Assembly: GCA_027051265.1 (NCBI GenBank)
Contig: JALTZH010000232.1
Location: 1-8,715 of the forward strand
From: an archaeon
GTDB taxonomy: Archaea > Hydrothermarchaeota > Hydrothermarchaeia > JALTZZ01 > JALUTC01
Length of the DNA: 8,715 nucleotides
Reading direction: 5' to 3'
Position 1 is the stretch's first letter. Each line of letters begins with the position of its first letter. A program made the translations under genes and the position numbers. This document shows, in pieces, positions 1-8,715 of this stretch. Below the pieces are notes generated by a model. The model saw only the letters and a program-made list of their open reading frames with translations. It ran no database searches and was not told the origin of the DNA.

Positions 1-679
1 CTTTAAGAGTTGGACAGAACTTTTCATTAGTAGATGCTTTTAAGAATTTATACTTTGAACCAACTTTTGAACCAGAAGCGCATAGACCATATGGAAAAGG
101 AGTTATCACGTTTTCCACGTTTCTAATAGCATCTACTGCGGCTTCACCTGCTAATAAAGCAGAAGCTTGTGATTTTGCTAGAATTATAAAATTACCTCCA
201 GCTATTCCTTTTTTAATACAAAACTCTTTTTCAACTATGAACTCTCCAAACATTATAGGTATAGAAACACAACTTCTACCGAAAATTTCAAGTTCCTTTT
301 CATAACCATCACCAAAGAATTTAAGTTTATATCCGGCTTTTATCTTCTCACCAGAATTTAAAGCGTTAAATACTCTTGTTCCTGGAGTTGTTAATACACA
401 TTGTCCAATCCTTGCAATTAATTCTTTTTCCATGTTTTTTTTACTTGTATAAATTTGTATATAATACCCGTGTCTTCCATCCGGTGTTTCATCAACACCA
501 GCATATCTTTCTATACCTGCTTCAGCAGTACATCCAATTAACGATGTTCCAAATCCAGTAGCTTCTCTAGCTGCTTCATACGCGTATTTTTTTGAAATCC
601 CTGTTATCAATATTCTTGAGAGATATAGATTGAATGCTTCAGCAAAAGTATCTTCGATTTCAACATTATTCACTTTCAT
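1..679 (-). CDS. ftr: Formylmethanofuran--tetrahydromethanopterin formyltransferase, N-terminal part (runs off the left edge)
   Basis: This cytosolic enzyme transfers the formyl group between formylmethanofuran and tetrahydromethanopterin, an early step of CO2 reduction to methane (or late step of C1 oxidation). The minus-strand frame is open for 226 codons from ATG at 679 to the window edge; the family is about 300 residues, so roughly the last quarter is missing. Seen motifs match the family from memory: VEIEDTFAEAF (residues 6-16), AAREATGFG (36-44), AEAGIE (52-57), IGQCV (91-95), FFGDGYE (121-127), GIAGGNF (158-164), EAAVDAI (179-185) and SKVGSKY (204-210). The start is supported by a strong Shine-Dalgarno sequence, GGGAGGAT (complement of 687-694), seven bases upstream. 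It is transcribed divergently from trm5. No frameshift is visible. Its presence is the main hint that the host has the H4MPT C1 pathway. Confidence 0.95.
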   Translation of the reverse strand, partial: MKVNNVEIEDTFAEAFNLYLSRILITGISKKYAYEAAREATGFGTSLIGCTAEAGIERYAGVDETPDGRHGYYIQIYTSKKNMEKELIARIGQCVLTTPGTRVFNALNSGEKIKAGYKLKFFGDGYEKELEIFGRSCVSIPIMFGEFIVEKEFCIKKGIAGGNFIILAKSQASALLAGEAAVDAIRNVENVITPFPYGLCASGSKVGSKYKFLKASTNEKFCPTLK

Positions 680-686
680 GCAATCC

Positions 687-740
687 ATCCTCCCTAAAAG
701 AAAAAGTTTTTTTAAAAATTTGAAAATTTTTATACCGAAA
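687..740 (-). promoter_or_regulatory. Promoter and ribosome binding site of ftr
   Basis: On the minus strand a TATA-like box TATAAAAA (complement of 727-734) is preceded by a BRE-like purine/pyrimidine stretch and lies about 50 bases before the ATG. Transcription starting some 25 bases downstream would leave a leader of roughly 25 bases carrying the GGGAGGAT site at 687-694. The TATA assignment is by pattern only; the ribosome binding site is clear. Confidence 0.6.
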
Positions 741-785
741 AAGAAATCTTTATTTTAACGACAATAATTTCTGATGAAGTATGGA

Positions 786-826
786 TCGATATAAATTTTA
801 AGATGGAAATCCATGAATTTATTTTT
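786..826 (+). promoter_or_regulatory. Possible promoter of the trm5-tfe-HD cluster
   Basis: Two TATA-like stretches lie upstream of the ATG at 864: ATATAAATTTT (789-799) and TTTATTTTT (818-826), both within or at the edge of the 54-bp repeat. The first would give a leader of about 45 bases, the second a leader of about 15. No Shine-Dalgarno sequence precedes the ATG, so a short-leader or leaderless transcript is plausible. The assignment is tentative. Confidence 0.35.
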
Positions 827-844
827 GCAACAAGATTTTTTGGA
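791..844. repeat. 54-bp dispersed repeat, copy A (upstream of trm5)
   Basis: This stretch matches 5147-5200 at 51 of 54 positions, with no gaps; the differences are at repeat positions 16, 41 and 51. Its first 31 bases form an imperfect palindrome: ATAAATT at 791-797 pairs with AATTTAT at 816-822, and ATGG at 803-806 pairs with CCAT at 811-814. The right part is a conserved T-rich stretch around TTTTTGCAA. Similarity stops abruptly on both sides. It lies in the spacer between ftr and trm5 and overlaps the likely trm5 promoter. Its role is unknown; a regulator site, a small mobile repeat or part of an insertion element are all possible. Confidence 0.85.
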
Positions 845-863
845 AAAACCACCACTTTAATTT

Positions 864-1610
864 ATGAGATTTAGTTACGAGATAATAGGAAGTATTGCAT
901 TGGTAGAAATACCTGAAGAATTCATGGATAAAAAATTTGAAATTGCAAAAAAAATATTGGAAACGAATAAGAATGTTAAAACTGTATTTAAGAAAGGAAA
1001 GATACTCGGAGAAGAACGTGTAAGAGAGTTAGAATTTTTACTCGGAGAAAACAAATCGGAAACCATTCATAAAGAATTTGGTTTAAGATATAAACTCGAT
1101 GTTACACGAGTATATTTTTCTCCAAGATTAGGATATGAAAGAGAAAGGATTATGCGTAAGGTAAAGGATAATGAAAAAATAATAGACATGTTTGCAGGAG
1201 TTGGTCCTTTTTCAATATTGATTGCTAAAAACAAAGACGTTAAAATAGTTGCAGTTGATAAAAATAAATATGCTTACAAATATTTAAAGGAAAATATAAA
1301 AATAAATAAAGTACAAGAAAAAGTTATTGCTATAAATTGTGATGTTAGAGAATTACATCTGGAAAACCTCTTCAATAGAGCAATTATGAATCTTCCCCTA
1401 TCTTCACATGAGTTTTTATATAAGGCGCTTGAGTTTATTCGTGATAATAGTTATTTACATGTTTATTATCTAGATGAAAATGAAAAGAAGTTGTATCGTT
1501 TTTTGGATGAAAATATAAGAGAATATAGGATAATATTTAAGAGGAAGGTTAAATCGTATTCTCCACGTAAATATATAAATGTCTTAGATATTTACGTTGT
1601 TAAAAAATAA
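864..1610 (+). CDS. trm5: Trm5-type tRNA (guanine-37 N1)-methyltransferase, short form without the D1 domain
   Basis: This enzyme uses S-adenosylmethionine to methylate N1 of G37 next to the anticodon, which prevents +1 frameshifting. The 248 residues begin directly with the D2 domain (about 1-85: strands, then RVRELEFLLGE at 52-62 and TIHKEFG at 67-73). The conserved SPRLG (86-90) and the Rossmann SAM site DMFAGVGPFS (108-117) follow. Asp132 sits in VAVDKN and Asp160 in the next strand. The Trm5 catalytic NLP is at 176-178, and the C-terminal SYSPRKY at 231-237. NLP and SPRLG favour Trm5 over the related wybutosine enzyme Taw2, which has a different motif there. Archaeal Trm5 proteins are usually about 330 residues, with an N-terminal D1 domain contacting the tRNA elbow; it is absent here and no remnant lies upstream. 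It is first in a close cluster with tfe and an HD gene. Confidence 0.88.
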   Translation: MRFSYEIIGSIALVEIPEEFMDKKFEIAKKILETNKNVKTVFKKGKILGEERVRELEFLLGENKSETIHKEFGLRYKLDVTRVYFSPRLGYERERIMRKVKDNEKIIDMFAGVGPFSILIAKNKDVKIVAVDKNKYAYKYLKENIKINKVQEKVIAINCDVRELHLENLFNRAIMNLPLSSHEFLYKALEFIRDNSYLHVYYLDENEKKLYRFLDENIREYRIIFKRKVKSYSPRKYINVLDIYVVKK

Positions 1611-1623
1611 TTTAATAGTTATA

Positions 1624-2142
1624 ATGAAAATAAAGGATTTTTTGAAGAACGAAATAAAGGAAGCAATAAAATATAAATTTGGAAGTATAGGTTTAAAAAT
1701 AATAGAAGAATTAACTGAAGCAGAGGAAATATCAGAGGATGAACTTATAAATAAATTAAATGTTCCTTCATACTATTTGAGAAAGGTTTTATTTAAGTTA
1801 AACGAAAACAGGATAATACTTTACAAAAAGGTATCAGATGAAGATTCTGGATATTATTTTTACTACTGGAAACTTAACCCAGATGGATTAAAGAGATGGT
1901 ATATAGAATATAAAAAGGACATACTTGATGAACTAAAAAATAGATTAAAAAAACTGAGAGATACACAAATATACTATTGTGAAAAAGATTCTCAGGAATA
2001 TACATTTGAAGAAGCAATTAGAAATGATTTCAAATGCAGACTATGCGGAAATTATTTAAACGTGTTAGATAACGAAAAGATAATTGGAGAGATAGAGCTA
2101 ATGATAAAAAAAATCGAAGAAGAACTTAAGAAACTATGCTAG
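1624..2142 (+). CDS. tfe: Transcription initiation factor E, alpha subunit (TFE)
   Basis: TFE-alpha joins the archaeal RNA polymerase preinitiation complex and helps DNA melting. The 172-residue protein has an N-terminal winged helix (about 1-85), with LTEAEEISEDEL and LRKVLFKLNENRIILY, then the tip SGYYFYYWKL (75-84). A charged helix (about 90-113) leads to a zinc ribbon (119-145) and a C-terminal acidic/basic helix. The ribbon looks incomplete: Cys119 is followed by Glu-Lys-Asp instead of a second Cys, while Cys138 and Cys141 are normal. I chose ATG 1624 because the upstream TTG at 1597 would add nine residues atypical for the family and overlap trm5; no Shine-Dalgarno sequence decides it. 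The gap after trm5 is 13 bases, and its end overlaps the next gene by 7 bases, so co-transcription is likely. Confidence 0.92.
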   Translation: MKIKDFLKNEIKEAIKYKFGSIGLKIIEELTEAEEISEDELINKLNVPSYYLRKVLFKLNENRIILYKKVSDEDSGYYFYYWKLNPDGLKRWYIEYKKDILDELKNRLKKLRDTQIYYCEKDSQEYTFEEAIRNDFKCRLCGNYLNVLDNEKIIGEIELMIKKIEEELKKLC

Positions 2143-2657
2143 AAGAATTTGAAGAGGATATAAAAAGAATTGAGAAGATTTACAATAGATTGAATTGTAA
2201 TAAAGATATATTTATTCATTGTTTAAAAGTTGCAGAAGTTGCTGTTTCCATTGCTAAAAGGATTGGAAATGTAGATATTAGAAGAGTATTGATAGGTGCT
2301 CTATTACATGATGTGGGAAGATGTTTCGAAAATGGTATTAAACATGGAATAGTTGGAGCAAAAATTGCAAAAGAATTTGGTTTCGATGAAAAAATTCAAA
2401 GAATAATAAAAACACATATAGGAGCAGGAATTGATAAAGAGGAAGCAATTAGATTAGGGTTACCTAAAGATGATTATATTCCAAGGAGTATTGAGGAAAA
2501 GATCGTATGTTATGCTGATAAGATCGTGTTTTTTAACAACGTTGTTCCATTTAGTAGAGTGTTGAAAAGATTTAAAAGGGAATTGGGAGAAAATCATCCC
2601 TCAATAAAAAGATTGCTAAAGTTGCATGAGGAATTGACAAAATTAATCAATTATTAA
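2136..2657 (+). CDS. HD-domain metal-dependent hydrolase (TIGR00295-like)
   Basis: This 173-residue soluble protein has an HD phosphohydrolase fold. The metal ligands are all visible: His28 (FIHCLKVAE), His58-Asp59 (LLHDVGR), His70 (IKHGIVGA), His94 (IKTHIGAG) and Asp128 (YADKIVF). Length and layout match the archaeal family annotated as TIGR00295/HDIG-containing, whose substrate is, to my knowledge, not established. Its ATG overlaps the tfe stop in ATGCTAG, so translation is probably coupled to tfe. The 3' end overlaps the convergent radical SAM gene by 11 bases, leaving no room for separate terminators. Nothing in the sequence indicates the substrate; a nucleotide or phosphoester is only the generic expectation. 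Confidence 0.85.
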   Translation: MLEEFEEDIKRIEKIYNRLNCNKDIFIHCLKVAEVAVSIAKRIGNVDIRRVLIGALLHDVGRCFENGIKHGIVGAKIAKEFGFDEKIQRIIKTHIGAGIDKEEAIRLGLPKDDYIPRSIEEKIVCYADKIVFFNNVVPFSRVLKRFKRELGENHPSIKRLLKLHEELTKLINY

Positions 2658-4569
2658 ATATATTAAAATAAAGCTCTTTTAGATAGTAAATGTTATTAGA
2701 TATAAAAGTTTTCTCTCGTGAAACTTCTTCGAGAGTTTCTTTCATAAAATCTCTTGTTTCATTAAAGGTTAAAAATTTTCTTATCAATGCCTCCTTATTT
2801 AACTTCAGAAATAGCTTAATCAAGCTTAGATATGCATGATACTCGTTCTTAAATTTATTGAAGGAGAAACCTATTTTTGAAAATGTTTTTATAATTAAAC
2901 CTTTCTTGTATAATTTATATAAAAAGGAAGTTAAAACGTATACGTAATCCATTCTTTTACAGATCTCTTCTAAAACTTCGATGATCTCCAATATATGTTC
3001 AAATCTTTCACCAGATGTATTTGGATCGAGACCTTTTTTTCTAATAAGATTTTTCATAAACGTTACAAAAACTTCGTGTGAATATGTTTTGAAATCAAAA
3101 ATGTAAGGTATTTCTAAGTTCCTTAAATAATATATACCATTGTTTTCGTACACATAAAGAGGATACAATAGTTTTTTATATCTTTCGACGTTTATTAAGT
3201 AAGAGTTAGGATATGCAAAGAGTAAATCGTTTATAGAAACATCTGGAACTTTATTGAATTTTCTTTTACAGGTATACATGAGTTCAAGCAAATTTTTAAT
3301 CTCTTCATAAATTTCAATTAAGAGATATTTATCCTTAGGTCTTGTTAATATTATGAAAATTCCTGGCTTTATACTATTCTCAAGAAGTTTAAAAACGAGA
3401 TTCTTTGCTAATTCAATATATTTTTCTTCTTTTCCTTCGTAATATTTTCTAAAATATCGTATCTTTTCTTTGACAAAGCTTTCAACTCCTATTTGTATCT
3501 TAGTAAAGTTTGCTCGTTTCATAATTTCAAGTAAAGAATAATTCTTGATGGAATCCACTCTTATCATTGCACCATAATATATATCGTTTAGATTGTTTTT
3601 TATGATCTTCTCACAAAGTTCCCATATATAATTTTCATCCTGTATGAATTGATCATCTTCAAACGTTACATATCTTATACCATTTTTTTTTGCATTCTTT
3701 AAAATTTTTATCAACTTATCAACCTTTAATCTTCTACCAGGTTTTGTTACTATAGCGCAGTAACTACATTTGTACCAATTACAACCACGTTGGGAATAGA
3801 TACTTAATCCTTTGTATTTTTTTCTTCTTATAATATCCCAGGGATAATCATCTAAAAGACTGTTAAGTTCTTCATCGTTTGGATATTCATGACTATACTT
3901 AATAAATTCTTCATAACTCAAATCTTCATATTTAGATTTGTTCTTTTTATAAAATTCTTTAACATCTACTTTATATATCTTTTTACTTCTAGCTTTAATT
4001 GTAACGTTTTTTAGAGGAATTTCCAGAACCTTATCTTTAACTTTTCTTAAAAAACCTCTGGATAAAATCTCTCTCGCATTGCTATCTGAAATAGGTGAAA
4101 CAAAATCGTATTTAAAAAGTTCAAGATCAATATTTTTGAAGAAAGTAGCTTGTACGTTATCAAGTTTTATTTCTATTTCCCTAAAAATCTTTCTTCCATT
4201 AGTAGGTTTAAGATTGTTTAAAATAACAGGTAAAGAAAGTTCAGCCTCTCCTTTGACAACGATATCTATACTTGGGACTTTTATGAGTTTATCTTCAAAA
4301 CCATAAATTCCCTGACCACCAACTATTGTTACAACATTTTCGTTTTTAATTTTTGCTTTTATTGAAGATAATATAGCGTTAAACAACTCATGTGAAGAAA
4401 ATACTGAAATGCCGAGAACATCGTATTTCTTAACATCACGTAGCAATTCTTTCTCGTTTGTAAAAAAGTCAACTTTAAATTTTTTTCTAAGATATTCTAC
4501 AAACTGTAATATTGCCGGTGCCTGATCATAACCGTACTTGTCATAATCAAAATAGAAAGCAATCTTCAT
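2647..4569 (-). CDS. B12-binding-domain radical SAM enzyme, function unknown
   Basis: The 640 residues fall into four parts. Residues 1-125 resemble a cobalamin-binding Rossmann domain (YDVLGISVFSSHE at 49-61, VGGQG at 83-87, VVKGEAE at 104-110). Residues 126-255 are a lysine-rich linker or inserted domain I do not recognise. The radical SAM domain runs from 256 to about 420 (SQRGCNWYKCSYC at 259-271, FEDDQF at 303-308, IQIGVES at 358-364), and a long helical tail follows. The cluster cysteines are Cys263, Cys268 and Cys271, giving CX4CX2C rather than CX3CX2C; I recall this wider spacing in some B12-type radical SAM families. The [4Fe-4S] cluster would cleave SAM for a methylation or rearrangement of an unknown substrate. 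It follows the MoaD-like gene by nine bases, with TAGGAA as a weak ribosome site, so the two probably act together. I cannot assign a named family. Confidence 0.85.
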   Translation of the reverse strand: MKIAFYFDYDKYGYDQAPAILQFVEYLRKKFKVDFFTNEKELLRDVKKYDVLGISVFSSHELFNAILSSIKAKIKNENVVTIVGGQGIYGFEDKLIKVPSIDIVVKGEAELSLPVILNNLKPTNGRKIFREIEIKLDNVQATFFKNIDLELFKYDFVSPISDSNAREILSRGFLRKVKDKVLEIPLKNVTIKARSKKIYKVDVKEFYKKNKSKYEDLSYEEFIKYSHEYPNDEELNSLLDDYPWDIIRRKKYKGLSIYSQRGCNWYKCSYCAIVTKPGRRLKVDKLIKILKNAKKNGIRYVTFEDDQFIQDENYIWELCEKIIKNNLNDIYYGAMIRVDSIKNYSLLEIMKRANFTKIQIGVESFVKEKIRYFRKYYEGKEEKYIELAKNLVFKLLENSIKPGIFIILTRPKDKYLLIEIYEEIKNLLELMYTCKRKFNKVPDVSINDLLFAYPNSYLINVERYKKLLYPLYVYENNGIYYLRNLEIPYIFDFKTYSHEVFVTFMKNLIRKKGLDPNTSGERFEHILEIIEVLEEICKRMDYVYVLTSFLYKLYKKGLIIKTFSKIGFSFNKFKNEYHAYLSLIKLFLKLNKEALIRKFLTFNETRDFMKETLEEVSREKTFISNNIYYLKELYFNIFNN

Positions 4570-4578
4570 ATTTTATTC

Positions 4579-4812
4579 CTAACCACCTGAAACTGGTGGT
4601 AATAAGTATATAACATCGTCGTTCTTAATTTTATCACTCATTTTTATGTATTCATTGTTCTTCGCAACTAAACATCCATTCAAATCAAGCTTATACTTTT
4701 CTGATATAATTTTTAACAGTTTTTTAGCTTCGATTTCTTTATCTATTGATATTTCAATTTGCTCTTTTCCAACTTTTTCTCTATAGGATGCAAAAAGCTT
4801 TATCTTAACCAA
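4579..4812 (-). CDS. MoaD/ThiS-family sulfur-carrier (ubiquitin-like) protein
   Basis: This is a 77-residue beta-grasp protein with the typical MoaD start (IKLFASYREKVGKEQIEI) and the diagnostic end IYLLPPVSGG. In this family the terminal glycine is adenylated and thiocarboxylated to donate sulfur in molybdopterin/tungstopterin synthesis. Archaeal relatives can also be conjugated to proteins (SAMPs). No E1-like, MoaE or cysteine desulfurase gene is nearby; instead the next gene, nine bases downstream, is a radical SAM enzyme. The start is TTG, because no in-frame ATG fits and GAGGTG (complement of 4821-4826) sits eight bases upstream. Whether it serves pterin synthesis or the partner enzyme cannot be decided from sequence. 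Confidence 0.9.
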   Translation of the reverse strand: MVKIKLFASYREKVGKEQIEISIDKEIEAKKLLKIISEKYKLDLNGCLVAKNNEYIKMSDKIKNDDVIYLLPPVSGG

Positions 4813-4820
4813 AGTATATT

Positions 4821-4885
4821 CACCTCTTCATAGTTAATTTTTTCCATATTAAAACATTTAGCTTAAATTTTTAAATTATAAAAAA
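4821..4885 (-). promoter_or_regulatory. Promoter region and ribosome binding site of the moaD-like/radical SAM operon
   Basis: The minus strand carries GAGGTG (complement of 4821-4826) eight bases before the TTG start, which decides that start codon. Further upstream an A/T-rich TATA-like stretch (TTTATAATTT, complement of about 4873-4882) is a plausible promoter. The ribosome site is convincing, while the TATA call is weak in such A/T-rich DNA. Confidence 0.5.
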
Positions 4886-4907
4886 GTAAATCTTTAGGAA
4901 CATAATT

Positions 4908-5024
4908 GTGAACTATCCCATTCTGACGGACGGGGCTTCATGGGGGTTTACATCCTTATTGTGTGCCTTATCCCACAGGCAAGTTCACGCTGCCTCTACT
5001 CTTACCCATCCAGTAGAGGGGATA
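4908..5024 (-). ncRNA. Candidate omega-RNA-like structured RNA (TnpB guide-RNA scaffold)
   Basis: In minus-strand order there is an 8-bp hairpin CCTCTACT/AGTAGAGG (complement of 5012-5019 and 4993-5000), then a GCCT/AGGC hairpin (complement of 4977-4980 and 4965-4968). The loop of the second contains GGGATA (complement of 4969-4974), which is complementary to TATCCC upstream (complement of 5019-5024), making a potential pseudoknot. Then come TAAACCCCC, GAAGCCCCGTC with an imperfect partner GAATGGG, and the end GTTCAC. If it works like known TnpB omega-RNAs, the guide would be the flanking DNA beyond 4908, beginning AATTATGTTC on the minus strand. Expression is not shown by the sequence. Confidence 0.5.
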
Positions 5025-5118
5025 GCGGAGCTACTTACACGATATATCTGCTTAACGGTTAGGTTGTTGGAACCGAGCTACATAGCTCGGCAACCGCTAA
5101 GCTATTAAATTGTTCAAA
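4908..5118 (-). mobile_element. Protein-free IS200/IS605-derived element (MITE-like, with omega-RNA-like 3' end)
   Basis: This island is visibly richer in G+C (32 of 60 bases at 4921-4980) than its surroundings and has no credible gene. Read on the minus strand it begins with a strong hairpin, as IS200/IS605 left ends do. CTTAGCGGTT (complement of 5092-5101) pairs with AACCGTTAAG (complement of 5051-5060), with one G-U. An inner CCGAGCT/AGCTCGG stem (5073-5079 with 5084-5090) has a 4-base loop. It ends in GTTCAC (complement of 4908-4913), the type of right end seen in tnpB elements. A TTAC, the classic IS200/IS605 target, lies just outside the left end (complement of 5119-5122), so I place the boundary at 5118. 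Both boundaries are inferred. No TnpA or TnpB remains are visible, so it would have to be mobilised in trans. Confidence 0.6.
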
Positions 5119-5146
5119 GTAACGTTAGCAAACATTTAATGAAAAG

Positions 5147-5200
5147 ATAAATTTTAAGATGAAAATCCATGAATTTATTTTTGCAATAAGATTTTTAGGA
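5147..5200. repeat. 54-bp dispersed repeat, copy B (downstream of ipk)
   Basis: This second copy of the repeat at 791-844 has 51 of 54 identical bases. The outer arms ATAAATT (5147-5153) and AATTTAT (5172-5178) are preserved; the inner ATGG arm is changed to ATGA. It lies between the structured mobile element (4908-5118) and the 3' end of ipk, so unlike copy A it is not obviously at a promoter of an annotated gene. The flanking sequences of the two copies are unrelated. Confidence 0.85.
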
Positions 5201-5257
5201 GGACATAGTTATAAGTTTTAAACTCCTATGAAAAATAAATAGATAGATAAGAACTAC

Positions 5258-5956
5258 TTACTTGATGAAAATTTTAGTACAAATAACTTCGCGTCCTTTT
5301 AATAAATCGTATAACAACCCTTTCTTTAATCCGTTTAATATGTAAACAACACCACGTCTCAATTTTTTAATCTGGTTGATTTTTTCACGCATTCCTCCGG
5401 TAGCGTTGCTTGTCTTAAAGAATATATTGTCGTTTATGTCATTTATATTGACACGTTTTATTACATTTCTGTTCTGATCAAGTATTCCATCAACATCAAC
5501 GAGAAATATTATCGTTTCTATATTTAGTTTGTTTGCAATTTCAACTGTAAGAGCATCTCCTGAAACGATTCGATATTCGTTGTTTTCTATTATGATATCT
5601 CCAAAAATTATTGGAACAATATTTGAGTTAAGAAGTTTTAAAATTGGATTTAAGTTTAAATCCTTATTTATAAGAGAGAACGTAGAAATTCCTGTACATA
5701 AAACATTCTCTTTTAAAAAATCTCTAACAACAAGATTGTTCAATACCTCCATATAGTATCTGGTAAGACAAAAGCCTTTTCTATTTAGTCCATATTTTTT
5801 CACAATGTAATGTCCGAAACTTCCTCCACCATGTATTACTATTAATCTCCTCTCATCTTTCAACTCTCTTGCAATTCTTCTCGTAACATAACTTCTATAA
5901 GTTAAAGGCTTTCTTTTATTAGTTATAACACTTCCACCAAGTTTTATTACTTTCAT
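5258..5956 (-). CDS. ipk: Isopentenyl phosphate kinase
   Basis: This cytosolic amino-acid-kinase-fold enzyme phosphorylates isopentenyl phosphate to isopentenyl diphosphate with ATP, completing the archaeal mevalonate pathway that feeds ether-lipid synthesis. The 232 residues show VIKLGGSVIT (3-12, with Lys5), IHGGGSFGH (41-49), VPIIFGDII (114-122), VSGDALTVEIA (131-141), FLVDVDGIL (151-159) and ATGGMREK (185-192). The histidine ending HGGGSFGH (His49) is the IPK hallmark that holds the substrate phosphate and separates IPK from other kinases of this fold. The protein is slightly short for the family (about 245-260). The ATG has no clear Shine-Dalgarno sequence, and the upstream A/T-rich stretch suggests a short leader. 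It stands alone between mobile DNA on both sides. Confidence 0.93.
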   Translation of the reverse strand: MKVIKLGGSVITNKRKPLTYRSYVTRRIARELKDERRLIVIHGGGSFGHYIVKKYGLNRKGFCLTRYYMEVLNNLVVRDFLKENVLCTGISTFSLINKDLNLNPILKLLNSNIVPIIFGDIIIENNEYRIVSGDALTVEIANKLNIETIIFLVDVDGILDQNRNVIKRVNINDINDNIFFKTSNATGGMREKINQIKKLRRGVVYILNGLKKGLLYDLLKGREVICTKIFIK

Positions 5957-6284
5957 AATCTTAAAATAAATAATATGTCACTACCAAACTCTCTTACAAA
6001 AATGAGATGAGATGTCATTATAAAATTATGAATAATTCTTAACTATGTTATAGAGATATTAAGCAGAAATATTCACATATTTTGAAACGAAAAGGTAGAG
6101 GTTTTGTTGGATACCATCATTTATATAAACATAATTCTATCTAAAACTTGTTATTTTAGAACTTACTAATAGTTTTTAAAAGAATTTATTTTTTAAAGCT
6201 TAATTAATAATTATTCTAAAGCTTTTAAATATCTTTCTCTTCTTTATTAAATTAAGTTTTTTTTAAAAACTTTAAAATAAAAGA
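5957..6284. other. A/T-rich spacer without a recognisable gene
   Basis: I see no convincing coding sequence here on either strand; the DNA is extremely A/T rich (only 9 G or C among 60 bases at 6241-6300). The left end should hold the ipk promoter. A TATA-like TTTATATAAA lies at 6119-6129, and a perfect 7-bp hairpin TCTAAAA/TTTTAGA at 6140-6146 and 6154-6160 could be a weak terminator or an insertion scar. The right end runs into the broken vapC. Confidence 0.5.
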
Positions 6285-6552
6285 ATGGAGAAAATTCCAA
6301 TAGATATAAAAGATCTTAAAACTTTTTTCTGAAGTTACGAAAGCTGCAAAAGAATTTCATATTGATTCGAGAAGAATTAAGAACTTCAGAAAGATTTCAT
6401 TACTAAAACGATTTTGTAAATATTATGATTGTCTTCCGAATGATGCTCTTATAGCAGTCACTTGCAAATATTATGGGATTAAAAAGATTGCAACGTTTGA
6501 TGAAGACTTTAAAAGAGTAGATTTCCTTGAGGTTATTGATCAATTAAAATAA
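6285..6552 (+). pseudogene. vapC: VapC-type PIN-domain toxin, frameshifted C-terminal remnant
   Basis: After a probable frameshift at the T6 run (6323-6328), the frame reads through to TAA at 6550-6552. It contains the typical VapC C-terminal half LPNDALIAVTCKYYG followed by IKKIATFDEDFKRVDFLEVI. The aspartates of NDALIA and of FDEDF are the later acidic residues of the PIN nuclease site. The N-terminal half with the first catalytic Asp is missing, and the preceding part reads MEKIPIDIKDLKTF from ATG 6285 in the other frame. PIN toxins cut RNA and are held by an antitoxin encoded next to them. Here the gene cannot make an active toxin; it is probably a relic of a toxin-antitoxin locus separate from the one just downstream. 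Confidence 0.8.
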
Positions 6553-6619
6553 TTAAAATTATAAATAATTAAAATTATGAGAATATTATCCTTTCTTAAA
6601 TAGATATGAAATTATTAAA

Positions 6620-6799
6620 GTGATTTATGAGAACAGCGTTTTTAAACCATTAGAGAAAGTTAACTTAAAAGAGGGTGAAATAGTTAAATTAAAAATAGAA
6701 ATAGATAGAAAAGAGATCGTAGAAAAATATGCTGGTATTTTAGGAGAAGCAGATGAAAAAGAATTAAAAGAAATTGAACAAAAGGCACAGATACAATGA
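6620..6799 (+). CDS. DUF104 (UPF0165, AF2212-like) antitoxin of a VapC pair
   Basis: The frame gives about 59 residues, starting VIYENSVFKPLEKVNLKEG, which is the hallmark N-terminus of the DUF104/UPF0165 antitoxin family. A basic/acidic helix follows, ending in KELKEIEQKAQ. Such proteins bind and neutralise a PIN-domain VapC and usually repress their own promoter. The TGA stop overlaps the ATG of a vapC start (ATGA at 6796-6799), the classic arrangement. The start is uncertain: in-frame codons upstream (back to a stop at 6578) include no ATG, so I chose GTG 6620. An ATG at 6606 lies one base out of frame, so a small frameshift may have damaged the start. Its own toxin is truncated, leaving it an orphan at best. 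Confidence 0.7.
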   Translation: MIYENSVFKPLEKVNLKEGEIVKLKIEIDRKEIVEKYAGILGEADEKELKEIEQKAQIQ

Positions 6800-6846
6800 T
6801 ATTCTTGGATACAAACATATCTTACAAAACGTCGCTAAGAAAGTAG
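6796..6846 (+). pseudogene. vapC: Truncated vapC start (PIN-domain toxin, first codons only)
   Basis: The reading frame MIFLDTNISY is the typical first strand of a PIN nuclease, with catalytic Asp5. It starts within the antitoxin stop codon, so it was translationally coupled to it. After Tyr10 the family resemblance ends and a stop follows at 6844-6846. The break coincides with TTAC (6822-6825), the favoured insertion target of IS200/IS605 elements, and a tnpB remnant starts about 35 bases later. The rest of the toxin is not found downstream in the window. Confidence 0.7.
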
Positions 6847-6858
6847 TGAATAGTTAAT

Positions 6859-8010
6859 ATGCGAAAAATGGAGAAGCAAAGAAAGCTGATAAAAAGAACC
6901 AAGTATTCAAGCTACATCCAAGCAAAGAACAAGAGAAAGATCTTTTCAAAATCTGTGAGATATCCACGATTCTTTGGAACAAGCTAAATTATATAAGGAG
7001 ACAAGCGTTCTTTAAGAACAGATTCAGCTGGGAAAATGGTGTTGAAGAATTATACGAAGAGTTTAAATCAATTTTAGGTTCTGCAACTATGCAGCAGATA
7101 ATAAGAAAAAAATAATTTCGCTTGGAAACGCTTCTTCAAGCTAAAAAGCCTTCAGAAAAAAAATAAACTGCCAAAGCACATTAGGAAGGTATCTTCACCC
7201 GTTACTGGAAGGATAGAGAAGCTAGTAAAAGAAAACTTATGACAATAATAAGAAACGATTGCTATCGAATAGAAAAAAACTTCAAAGGCAAAAAATACTT
7301 AATATTTAAAGGCATGAGAATTAGAATATAGCAAAGCTAAATGGCATGGTAAACAGAGACAATTGGAAATCTTCTATGACGACTTAACTAAAAACTGGTA
7401 CGCTCATCAAACCATCGAAGTTGAGAAACCTGAAGCAAAAGGTTATAAAAGAGCCTTCGCTATCTGTTTGATAACAGTTTGGATCGAAAACGAAAGACAA
7501 GCTATTGCTTTCAGCGGCAAGTCTTTTCTATCGGATTGGTGGTATTGGAACAAAAAAATCGCTCAACACCAAAGCCTCCTCAAAAGAATTAATAATAGAT
7601 ACAACTCCAGAACCCTTAGAAAACTATACAGAATAAGACAAAAAAGGTTTAGGCATTACGTTAATTCCGTCGTGCATAGATTCGTAAAGCTTTGCAAAAC
7701 GTTAAAACAATCTTCGTCAGCGATCCCAAAGGTTTAAGAAGAAACAACAACAAAAGCAAAAAATTAACACTATCATCCACAACTTCTTCAGCTATAGATA
7801 TATCATCGAAAGGCTTAGGATAACGGCCGAAAACTTCGAATTAAGGTTTGAATCCGTAAATGAACGTAATACCTCCTCTCGTTGCCCTTTGTTGCAATAA
7901 GCCAAGTTTATTAAAATAGATAGTATTGTTTAAATGTCGTTGCAAGTAGTTTAGATTTAAATAGAATAACGTGGAGAAATATAGAAAAAGCATCAAAGAT
8001 TTTAAAAATT
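6859..8010 (+). pseudogene. tnpB: tnpB (IS605 OrfB) pseudogene, multiply disrupted
   Basis: TnpB is the RNA-guided RuvC nuclease of IS200/IS605 and IS1341-type elements. Pieces in several frames line up in TnpB order. An N-terminal KNQVFKLHPSKEQEKDLF lies in an open stretch 6894-7112, ending at a stop. LMTIIRNDCYRIEKNF is split by a stop near 7240. The longest intact piece (7363-7737) includes KNWYAHQTIEVEKPE, KGYKRAFAI and LLKRINNRYNSRTLRKLY. Then come DPKGLRRNNNKSKKLN (about 7720-7768), YIIERLRITAENF and NTSSRCP (about 7868-7888), and KCRCK of the second zinc knuckle (7932-7946). The RuvC-I motif, normally DLG after FAI, is replaced by Cys-Leu-Ile, so the first catalytic Asp is gone. No tnpA is visible. 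It is inserted in the vapC locus and cannot be active. Confidence 0.85.
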
Positions 8011-8052
8011 TTTTAATACATAAGATGATTATTGACAAGAAAAACATAATGA

Positions 8053-8413
8053 CCCTGCCCCCAATGCGGGTATATATCTAAAGACCCAAGGGGGCAGGTG
8101 ATACCTAAATACCTCAAAATGAAGGGATTTCCCCAGAGCCCCAAACACTTTCTACCGTGTGGTGATCAATAAAATAATCCCTCAGTGGAAGGTCATCACA
8201 GGCTCTGGGCGGGGTTGCTCAGATCGGGGCGGAGATCGATGATTTGCTTCCCAATGGAAGAGGAGCTGAGGTCGATGATACCTAAAGGACTGATGGAAAC
8301 TCCTTAAACTTCCATAAATTTCCACCAATCCTGAACCCCTTAACTCTCGTGTAGAAGCCCATAAAGATGTCGTAGGCGCTCTAAATATAGCTCTCGTCTC
8401 AATGATGCTCTAA
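8053..8413 (+). pseudogene. tnpB: 3' remnant of a second tnpB, G+C-rich, with split zinc ribbon
   Basis: A frame from 8053 to a stop at 8170 encodes PCPQCGYISKD, the first knuckle of a TnpB zinc ribbon. About 300 bases later, in another frame (8351-8413), VEAHKDVVGALNIA is the usual TnpB C-terminal RuvC-III motif, whose Asp is catalytic. In intact TnpB these two are normally only about 20-25 residues apart, so roughly 200-250 bases appear inserted or duplicated between them. The base composition (31 G or C among 60 at 8221-8280) differs sharply from the upstream A/T-rich tnpB, which has its own zinc ribbon. This is therefore a separate, probably more recently arrived element. The region also carries strong RNA-like pairings (see findings). 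Confidence 0.65.
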
Positions 8414-8427
8414 GCCGAACCAGCGAC

Positions 8428-8567
8428 GATGTAGGCTTAAAAGAGTTGAGAGAGGAAGATTTAACCGGGTGCTGACTCACTCCGTGTTTCTGCGGGTTTC
8501 TCTTGCAGAAGTACAAACCTTCCCGCAAGGAACCCTCACCCTTTAGGATGGGGAAGAGGCGTTTCAC
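8428..8567 (+). ncRNA. omega-RNA-like 3' end / right end of the second tnpB element
   Basis: Directly after the TnpB tail there is a TTCTGC/GCAGAA hairpin (8488-8493 with 8505-8510). Its loop starts with GGG (8494-8496), which can pair with CCC at 8522-8524, a potential pseudoknot. Then TACAAACC leads to GAACCCTCACCC, which folds back on GGATGGGG (8534-8541 with 8546-8553, one mismatch), and the element ends in TTTCAC (8562-8567). This position, fold and ending are those of TnpB omega-RNA scaffolds. The guide would start at 8568. With the protein broken, it could only act with a TnpB made elsewhere. Confidence 0.55.
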
Positions 8568-8569
8568 TC

Positions 8570-8698
8570 TGGATAGCTATGGATAAACATAGCTATCCAT
8601 CATTGCACATAAGATTCCCTTTGTGGATACATCATTAGGGAGCACGGCTCCCTTTCGTATCCACTTCATCGGGCAGTCGTGGGGCACGCGAACCCCAC
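8570..8698. repeat. Cluster of three perfect hairpins downstream of the transposon end
   Basis: Three inverted repeats lie in a row. The first has a 12-bp stem (8570-8581 with 8588-8599, 6-base loop). The second is nested, with an 8-bp outer stem (8623-8630 with 8657-8664) and a 7-bp inner stem AGGGAGC/GCTCCCT (8637-8643 with 8647-8653). The third is 6 bp, GTGGGG/CCCCAC (8679-8684 with 8693-8698). The first two both contain TGGATA and its complement. No coding frame explains them. They may be the end of another IS200/IS605-type element or a structured RNA continuing past the window. Confidence 0.7.
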
Positions 8699-8715
8699 CC
8701 ATTTTCGATATTGCA

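Follow-up and report, generated by a model that had tools for sequence, protein, structure and literature searches.

Why should an archaeal genome with a background of 27% G+C carry, between two genes, a protein-free island of 45.6% G+C that stops sharply at its right edge? The window considered here, a stretch of 8,715 nucleotides, is contig 232 of G000, the 1.46-Mb draft genome of an uncultivated archaeon, in 257 contigs with 95% completeness. No other segment of the same size within window positions 1-6800 rises above 37.2% G+C. The island is predicted to fold strongly (z -3.15 on the minus strand and -2.49 on the plus strand), and the sole open reading frame in 4908-5108 is a chance frame of 66 amino acids, too short for a transposase. 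An earlier reading made from the sequence alone had called it a protein-free, G+C-rich island with a right end GTTCAC, and its composition, folding and sharp end at 4908 confirm that description.

The island is one member of a family. A unit of about 230 bp recurs, mostly decayed, at about a dozen other places in G000; by DNA search these include a second full-length copy, L002 (77% identity over all 230 bases, E 1e-42), copies L003 and L004 that match at about 75-77% over parts of the unit, and several left- or right-end fragments. Two more full-length copies, L038 and L041, are 69-71% identical and have start and end points identical to those of the window unit; they lie in G002, archaeon JALTZZ01 (isolate S141_metabat2_scaf2bin.181), a member of another family of the same order. 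Because a second full-length copy and partial copies occur in the source genome and full-length copies in a related one, the element is not a product of chance. A covariance model built from six solo copies (copies lacking tnpB) gave 14 matches in G000 at E below 1e-4, or 13 excluding the window copy; two of them are halves of one insertion-split copy and one lies behind a tnpB. The same model gave 12 matches in G002 and none in 21 further genomes of the phylum that were searched. The element had no match in viral, phage and plasmid collections, and none in Rfam at the gathering score. Solo copies are dispersed, adjoining different genes, and the DNA beyond the right end GTTCAC differs in every copy. 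L004 (G000 contig 134) is a solo copy split by an insertion of ~330 bp that resembles a piece beside L003, an element nested within an element.

The family is tied to tnpB by both of its ends. In G002, about ten tnpB genes have 3' flanks that match element positions 102-230, and in G000 the 3' flank of one tnpB matches the element right end. The G002 genes lie on the strand corresponding to the window minus strand and encode an OrfB_IS605/TnpB protein whose close relatives (64-89% identical) occur, within the phylum, only in G002; the same kind of right end is found behind tnpB in the distant archaea G026, G163, G200 and G232. Full-length tnpB elements start with TTTAT followed directly by CTTCYCGTTGCTTGCAAG...CGCAAGG, the left-end hairpin, and this left end is common to the tnpB elements and to solo copies L002, L038, L041, L004 and L016, in varying condition. 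TTTAT precedes the left end in 7/7 full-length G002 tnpB elements examined and in solo L041, L002 and L004. In the seven tnpB copies and several solo copies it stands at the left only and is not repeated at the right, so that there is no target duplication, and GTTCAC closes the right end of solo and tnpB copies alike. The sequence-only reading had proposed an IS200/IS605 element cut down to its ends plus a guide scaffold on the minus strand, and the occurrence of the same ends on the G002 tnpB elements bears this out.

Although its ends belong to a family shared with IS605-type tnpB elements, the window copy keeps only a 9-nt remnant of the left one. On its minus strand TTTAT and CTTTTCATT run straight into AAATGTTTGC, skipping the left-end hairpin of about 60 nt. 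Solo copies in better condition (L002, L038, L041, L004) have subterminal hairpins at both ends, of which the left one is deleted here. Because the window has a single match to TTTATCTTYYCRTT, where chance would give none (0 in 200 shuffles), we place the element at 4908-5146 on the minus strand, with no tnpB inside. This moves the left boundary that had been read earlier, a left-end hairpin with TTAC at its flank: that motif, at 5121-5124, reads GTTAATG, GTTAGTG or GTTAACG in other copies, the actual left end is 5146, after TTTAT at 5147-5151, and the supposed left-end hairpin is an internal one at about 5050-5103. TTAC was likewise rejected as the target, since it is not conserved across copies. 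Insertion itself is inferred from the copies and their shared boundaries, with no empty site seen; the kinase gene beside the element, which was used for an empty-site comparison, has no clear orthologue in G001, a genome of the same genus. Window 5147-5200 and 791-844 are copies, 94% identical, of a dispersed repeat of 54 bp whose edge falls exactly on the element insertion point (5147). The features of the locus are as follows.

2647-4569, minus strand: radical SAM gene near the element
4579-4812, minus strand: ThiS-family gene, on one side of the island
4888-4907, minus strand: flank AATTATGTTCCTAAAGATTT, the would-be guide if RNA is made, by analogy with the ISDra2 reRNA (PMC8612924)
4908-4913, minus strand: GTTCAC at the right terminus, where element and guide scaffold finish and homology with full-length copies and tnpB elements stops
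4908-5036, minus strand: right end, the putative omega-RNA scaffold (element positions 102-230), matching tnpB 3' flanks
4916-4935, minus strand: terminal hairpin CCCCGTCC-GTCA-GAATGGGA, stem 4 equivalent, with 6/8 pairs intact in the window copy
4940-4976, minus strand: stem 3a-like helix GTGGG/CCCAT (outer arms) around a weakened 3b-like hairpin
4994-5018, minus strand: 8-bp hairpin CCTCTACT/AGTAGAGG, in a position equivalent to ISDra2 omega-RNA stem 1
5004-5008, minus strand: TGGGT, a stem-1 loop segment that may form a pseudoknot with the terminal GTTCA
5037-5137, minus strand: solo-specific middle (element positions 1-101), conserved among solo copies
about 5050-5103, minus strand: two-part hairpin inside the solo-specific middle
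5138-5146, minus strand: left-end remnant CTTTTCATT, by comparison with the left ends of L041, L002, L038, L004 and L065-L074
5147-5151, minus strand: target/TAM-like pentamer TTTAT, directly 5' of the element left end
5258-5956, minus strand: amino-acid-kinase-family gene, on the other side of the island

The fold is conserved along with the ends. In the minus-strand consensus fold of the six solo copies, 89% of cells are paired, against 33-43% when the fold is slid, and 9 pairs show double-sided changes, against a shuffled mean of 5.5 (23/500 shuffles); the helix statistics are thus clearly above the slid controls and modestly above the shuffled ones. For the right end alone, compared over 17 sequences, the paired fraction of cells is 87%, and 40-51% when slid; double-sided changes are not above shuffles. 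The sequence-only reading had staked itself on further copies and compensatory changes in the stems, and both were found, the copies in two genomes. The 8-bp hairpin that it described is real, being kept in long-form relatives as helix 1 with 92% of cells paired, and the stem 3a-like helix appears as helix 3 of the right-end fold and as helices 6-7 of the solo fold. Its terminal hairpin is real as well. The pseudoknot that it proposed between a hairpin loop and an upstream TATCCC is not conserved. Pairing of UGGGU in the stem-1 loop with the terminal GUUCA is supported instead: across five inner pairs 81/85 cells can pair, with roughly half or less when slid, and one double-sided change (L074) is present, moderate support for a putative pseudoknot. 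Another candidate, GTGAAC with GTTCAC, is perfect in the window and missing in L038, L041 and most G002 tnpB copies, and was rejected.

Counted from the right end, GUUCA falls at -6..-2, the tetraloop at -20..-17 and GAA at -32..-30, as in the ISDra2 structure paper (PMC10097598). Because these landmarks sit at the ISDra2 positions, the right end is identified as the scaffold of a TnpB omega-RNA; in homologues from G002 and the distant archaea, the scaffold overlaps the tnpB 3' end and the element right end. The minus strand is assigned because of the homology with tnpB elements and the better consensus fold on that strand (-31.2 against -24.5). It had previously been argued from a single A-C mismatch on the plus strand becoming a G-U wobble on the minus strand, an argument that fails on inspection: in CCCCGTCC/GAATGGGA the count is two C-A and one G-U for the minus strand but one A-C and two G-U for the plus strand, so that the terminal hairpin, if anything, favours plus over minus. 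Across pairs common to both strands' folds, G-U and A-C are even, 12 against 10. The two C-A mismatches of the terminal hairpin and the weakened inner hairpin are features of the window copy on the minus strand.

Where the tnpB elements carry their gene, solo copies carry a segment of ~95 nt, and solo positions 1-101 do not occur as such in tnpB elements. Part of this middle, in the two solo copies of G002, is similar to the final ~65 nt of tnpB, just ahead of the right end (0/300 and 1/300 shuffles); for the G000 solo copies the similarity to the tnpB 3' end is not significant. These comparisons fit an old deletion of the core with later divergence, in which part of the middle would descend from the tnpB 3' end. 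Taking the middle as a plain tnpB remnant was rejected, its support being limited to the two G002 copies. In the six-solo-copy fold, middle helices 1-2 contain 5 pairs changed on both sides.

Mobility and guide function would both depend on proteins made elsewhere. No Y1 transposase (TnpA) was found in G000; G002 has one (L075), with a different left end. Nor was an intact cognate TnpB found in G000, where only partial matches of ~30% to generic TnpBs were recovered; in an assembly of 257 contigs at 95% completeness, either protein could be missed. The only G000 tnpB with a matching right end (C17, on contig 17) carries a TAG stop in its frame and lies downstream of a serine recombinase, and the other G000 tnpBs have different right ends, of GAGGTCA type. 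G000 does encode several intact TnpBs of other subfamilies. No second site with TTTAT plus the guide of the window copy was found in G000, G001 or G002, as expected, since the guide would target the element's own donor site.

The earlier description of the locus as lacking a TnpB gene holds for the element but not for the window, which carries at 6882-8540 a broken, unrelated tnpB of another subfamily, about 64-75% identical to the intact G000 TnpB L022. It has several frameshifts and an interruption of ~430 bp at about 7916-8350, and a right end of its own that apparently terminates in GTTTCAC near 8566; a small AF2212-like (antitoxin-type) gene at 6620-6799 stands just upstream. L076 (G000 contig 17, 2319-4025) is an IS607-like pair of a serine recombinase and a tnpB with one in-frame TAG, and its right end resembles those of the IS605-type solo elements. 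Window 8560-8715 (minus strand), at the right edge, and the L005/L076 tnpB of contig 17 have in common a block that includes GGATAGCTAT...ATAGCTATCC and coding sequence for a TnpB C-terminus.

Could the island still be a functional solo omega-RNA, its minus-strand transcript loading a TnpB made elsewhere and directing it to the empty donor site? The scaffold landmarks are kept, the neighbouring genes lie on the same strand, and G000 has intact TnpBs of other subfamilies to offer. However, those tnpBs end in right ends of a different type, the one with a matching right end is interrupted by a stop, and the window scaffold is mismatched in stem 4 and the inner hairpin. We therefore think this unlikely, and trans-guiding of a TnpB is possible but unlikely because no Y1 transposase and no intact cognate TnpB were found in G000. 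A broader version, in which the solo copies are maintained trans-acting guides, each guarding its own insertion site with an other-subfamily TnpB encoded elsewhere, we regard as likewise unlikely; if true, a TnpB-less element would persist by borrowing a nuclease.

The recombinase in front of the matching G000 tnpB raises the separate question of whether the island is a relic of an IS607-type element rather than an IS200/IS605 one. Yet the left-end hairpin and TTTAT target are found on the G002 tnpB elements as well, C17 is without that left end in the stretch examined, and hairpins near both ends with a one-sided target fit IS200/IS605, which makes an IS607 origin very unlikely. Least probable of all is a housekeeping or regulatory RNA of the lineage, unrelated to transposons. 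Such an RNA might be folded and conserved across two families, as this element is, but the copies are dispersed beside different genes, are absent from the other 21 phylum genomes and match no Rfam family, and the identity of their ends with those of tnpB elements already contradicts this explanation.

Taken together, the copies in two genomes, the ends shared with tnpB elements, the TTTAT on the left only and the GTTCAC end, all established by comparison of sequences, point with a probability of roughly 0.88 to a decayed, non-autonomous PATE (palindrome-associated transposable element) of IS200/IS605 type, a MITE-like form with a left-end remnant and an omega-RNA scaffold right end, of which this copy is most likely an inert relic. 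That it is inert is suggested because its left-end hairpin is gone, its scaffold is mismatched and no TnpA or intact cognate TnpB is detectable; because of the hairpin loss, it is probably immobile. On this reading it has lost most of tnpB and kept a left-end remnant and the whole right end. In the past a Y1 transposase would have mobilised copies in trans through their single-stranded ends, and they would have inserted 3' of TTTAT with no duplication of the target. The empty donor site would then read ...AAATTTAT joined directly to AATTATGTTCC..., rejoining TTTAT to AATTATG. A transcript of the right end with about 16-20 nt of flank, if made, would be an omega-RNA whose only target is the element's own empty donor site (TTTAT plus flank). 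A matching TnpB would then help to keep the element in place, a guide function presumably lasting while a cognate TnpB was present. On this account an IS605 element can lose its nuclease gene while its guide-RNA half lives on, spreading or persisting as a gene-less copy family. Within one archaeal order, solo copies and copies linked to tnpB have their ends in common and also form a set for testing trans-use of omega-RNA; if trans-guiding were shown, the view of TnpB-less relics would change.

It is important to note that gene-less remnants of this kind are already known. The PATEs of Haloquadratum walsbyi are numerous and heterogeneous, with core deletions and truncated copies (PMC3119063). 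Like them, the present elements are transposase-free, with near-terminal palindromes, no target duplication and ends shared with IS605-type tnpB elements; unlike them, they belong to another lineage, the window copy lacks the left-end palindrome, and the omega-RNA scaffold is here compared with tnpB-linked copies and with ISDra2. A PATE-like element of Halanaerobium hydrogeniformans joins 28 nt of left end with a hairpin to the final 58 nt of tnpB and a complete right end (PMC7290912), nearly the plan seen here and in keeping with the core deletion suggested above. That element is a single copy in a bacterium, whereas here a single archaeal genome has about a dozen solo copies, most of them degenerate. 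With the ISDra2 omega-RNA (reRNA) the right end shares a right-end-derived scaffold, GUUCA before the guide, the loop at -20..-17 and GAA at -32..-30 (PMC8612924, PMC10097598), as well as a stem-1-like hairpin with a pseudoknot site in its loop (PMC10097598). The ISDra2 TAM is TTGAT; for the present element, which has no tnpB in cis, TTTAT is proposed. Closest of all are the G002 elements L065-L074, whose left end, target and right end are the same as those of the solo copies, and which carry tnpB where the solo copies have the ~95-nt segment. With PATEs established in archaea, the element is a clear and well-documented example of a known phenomenon.
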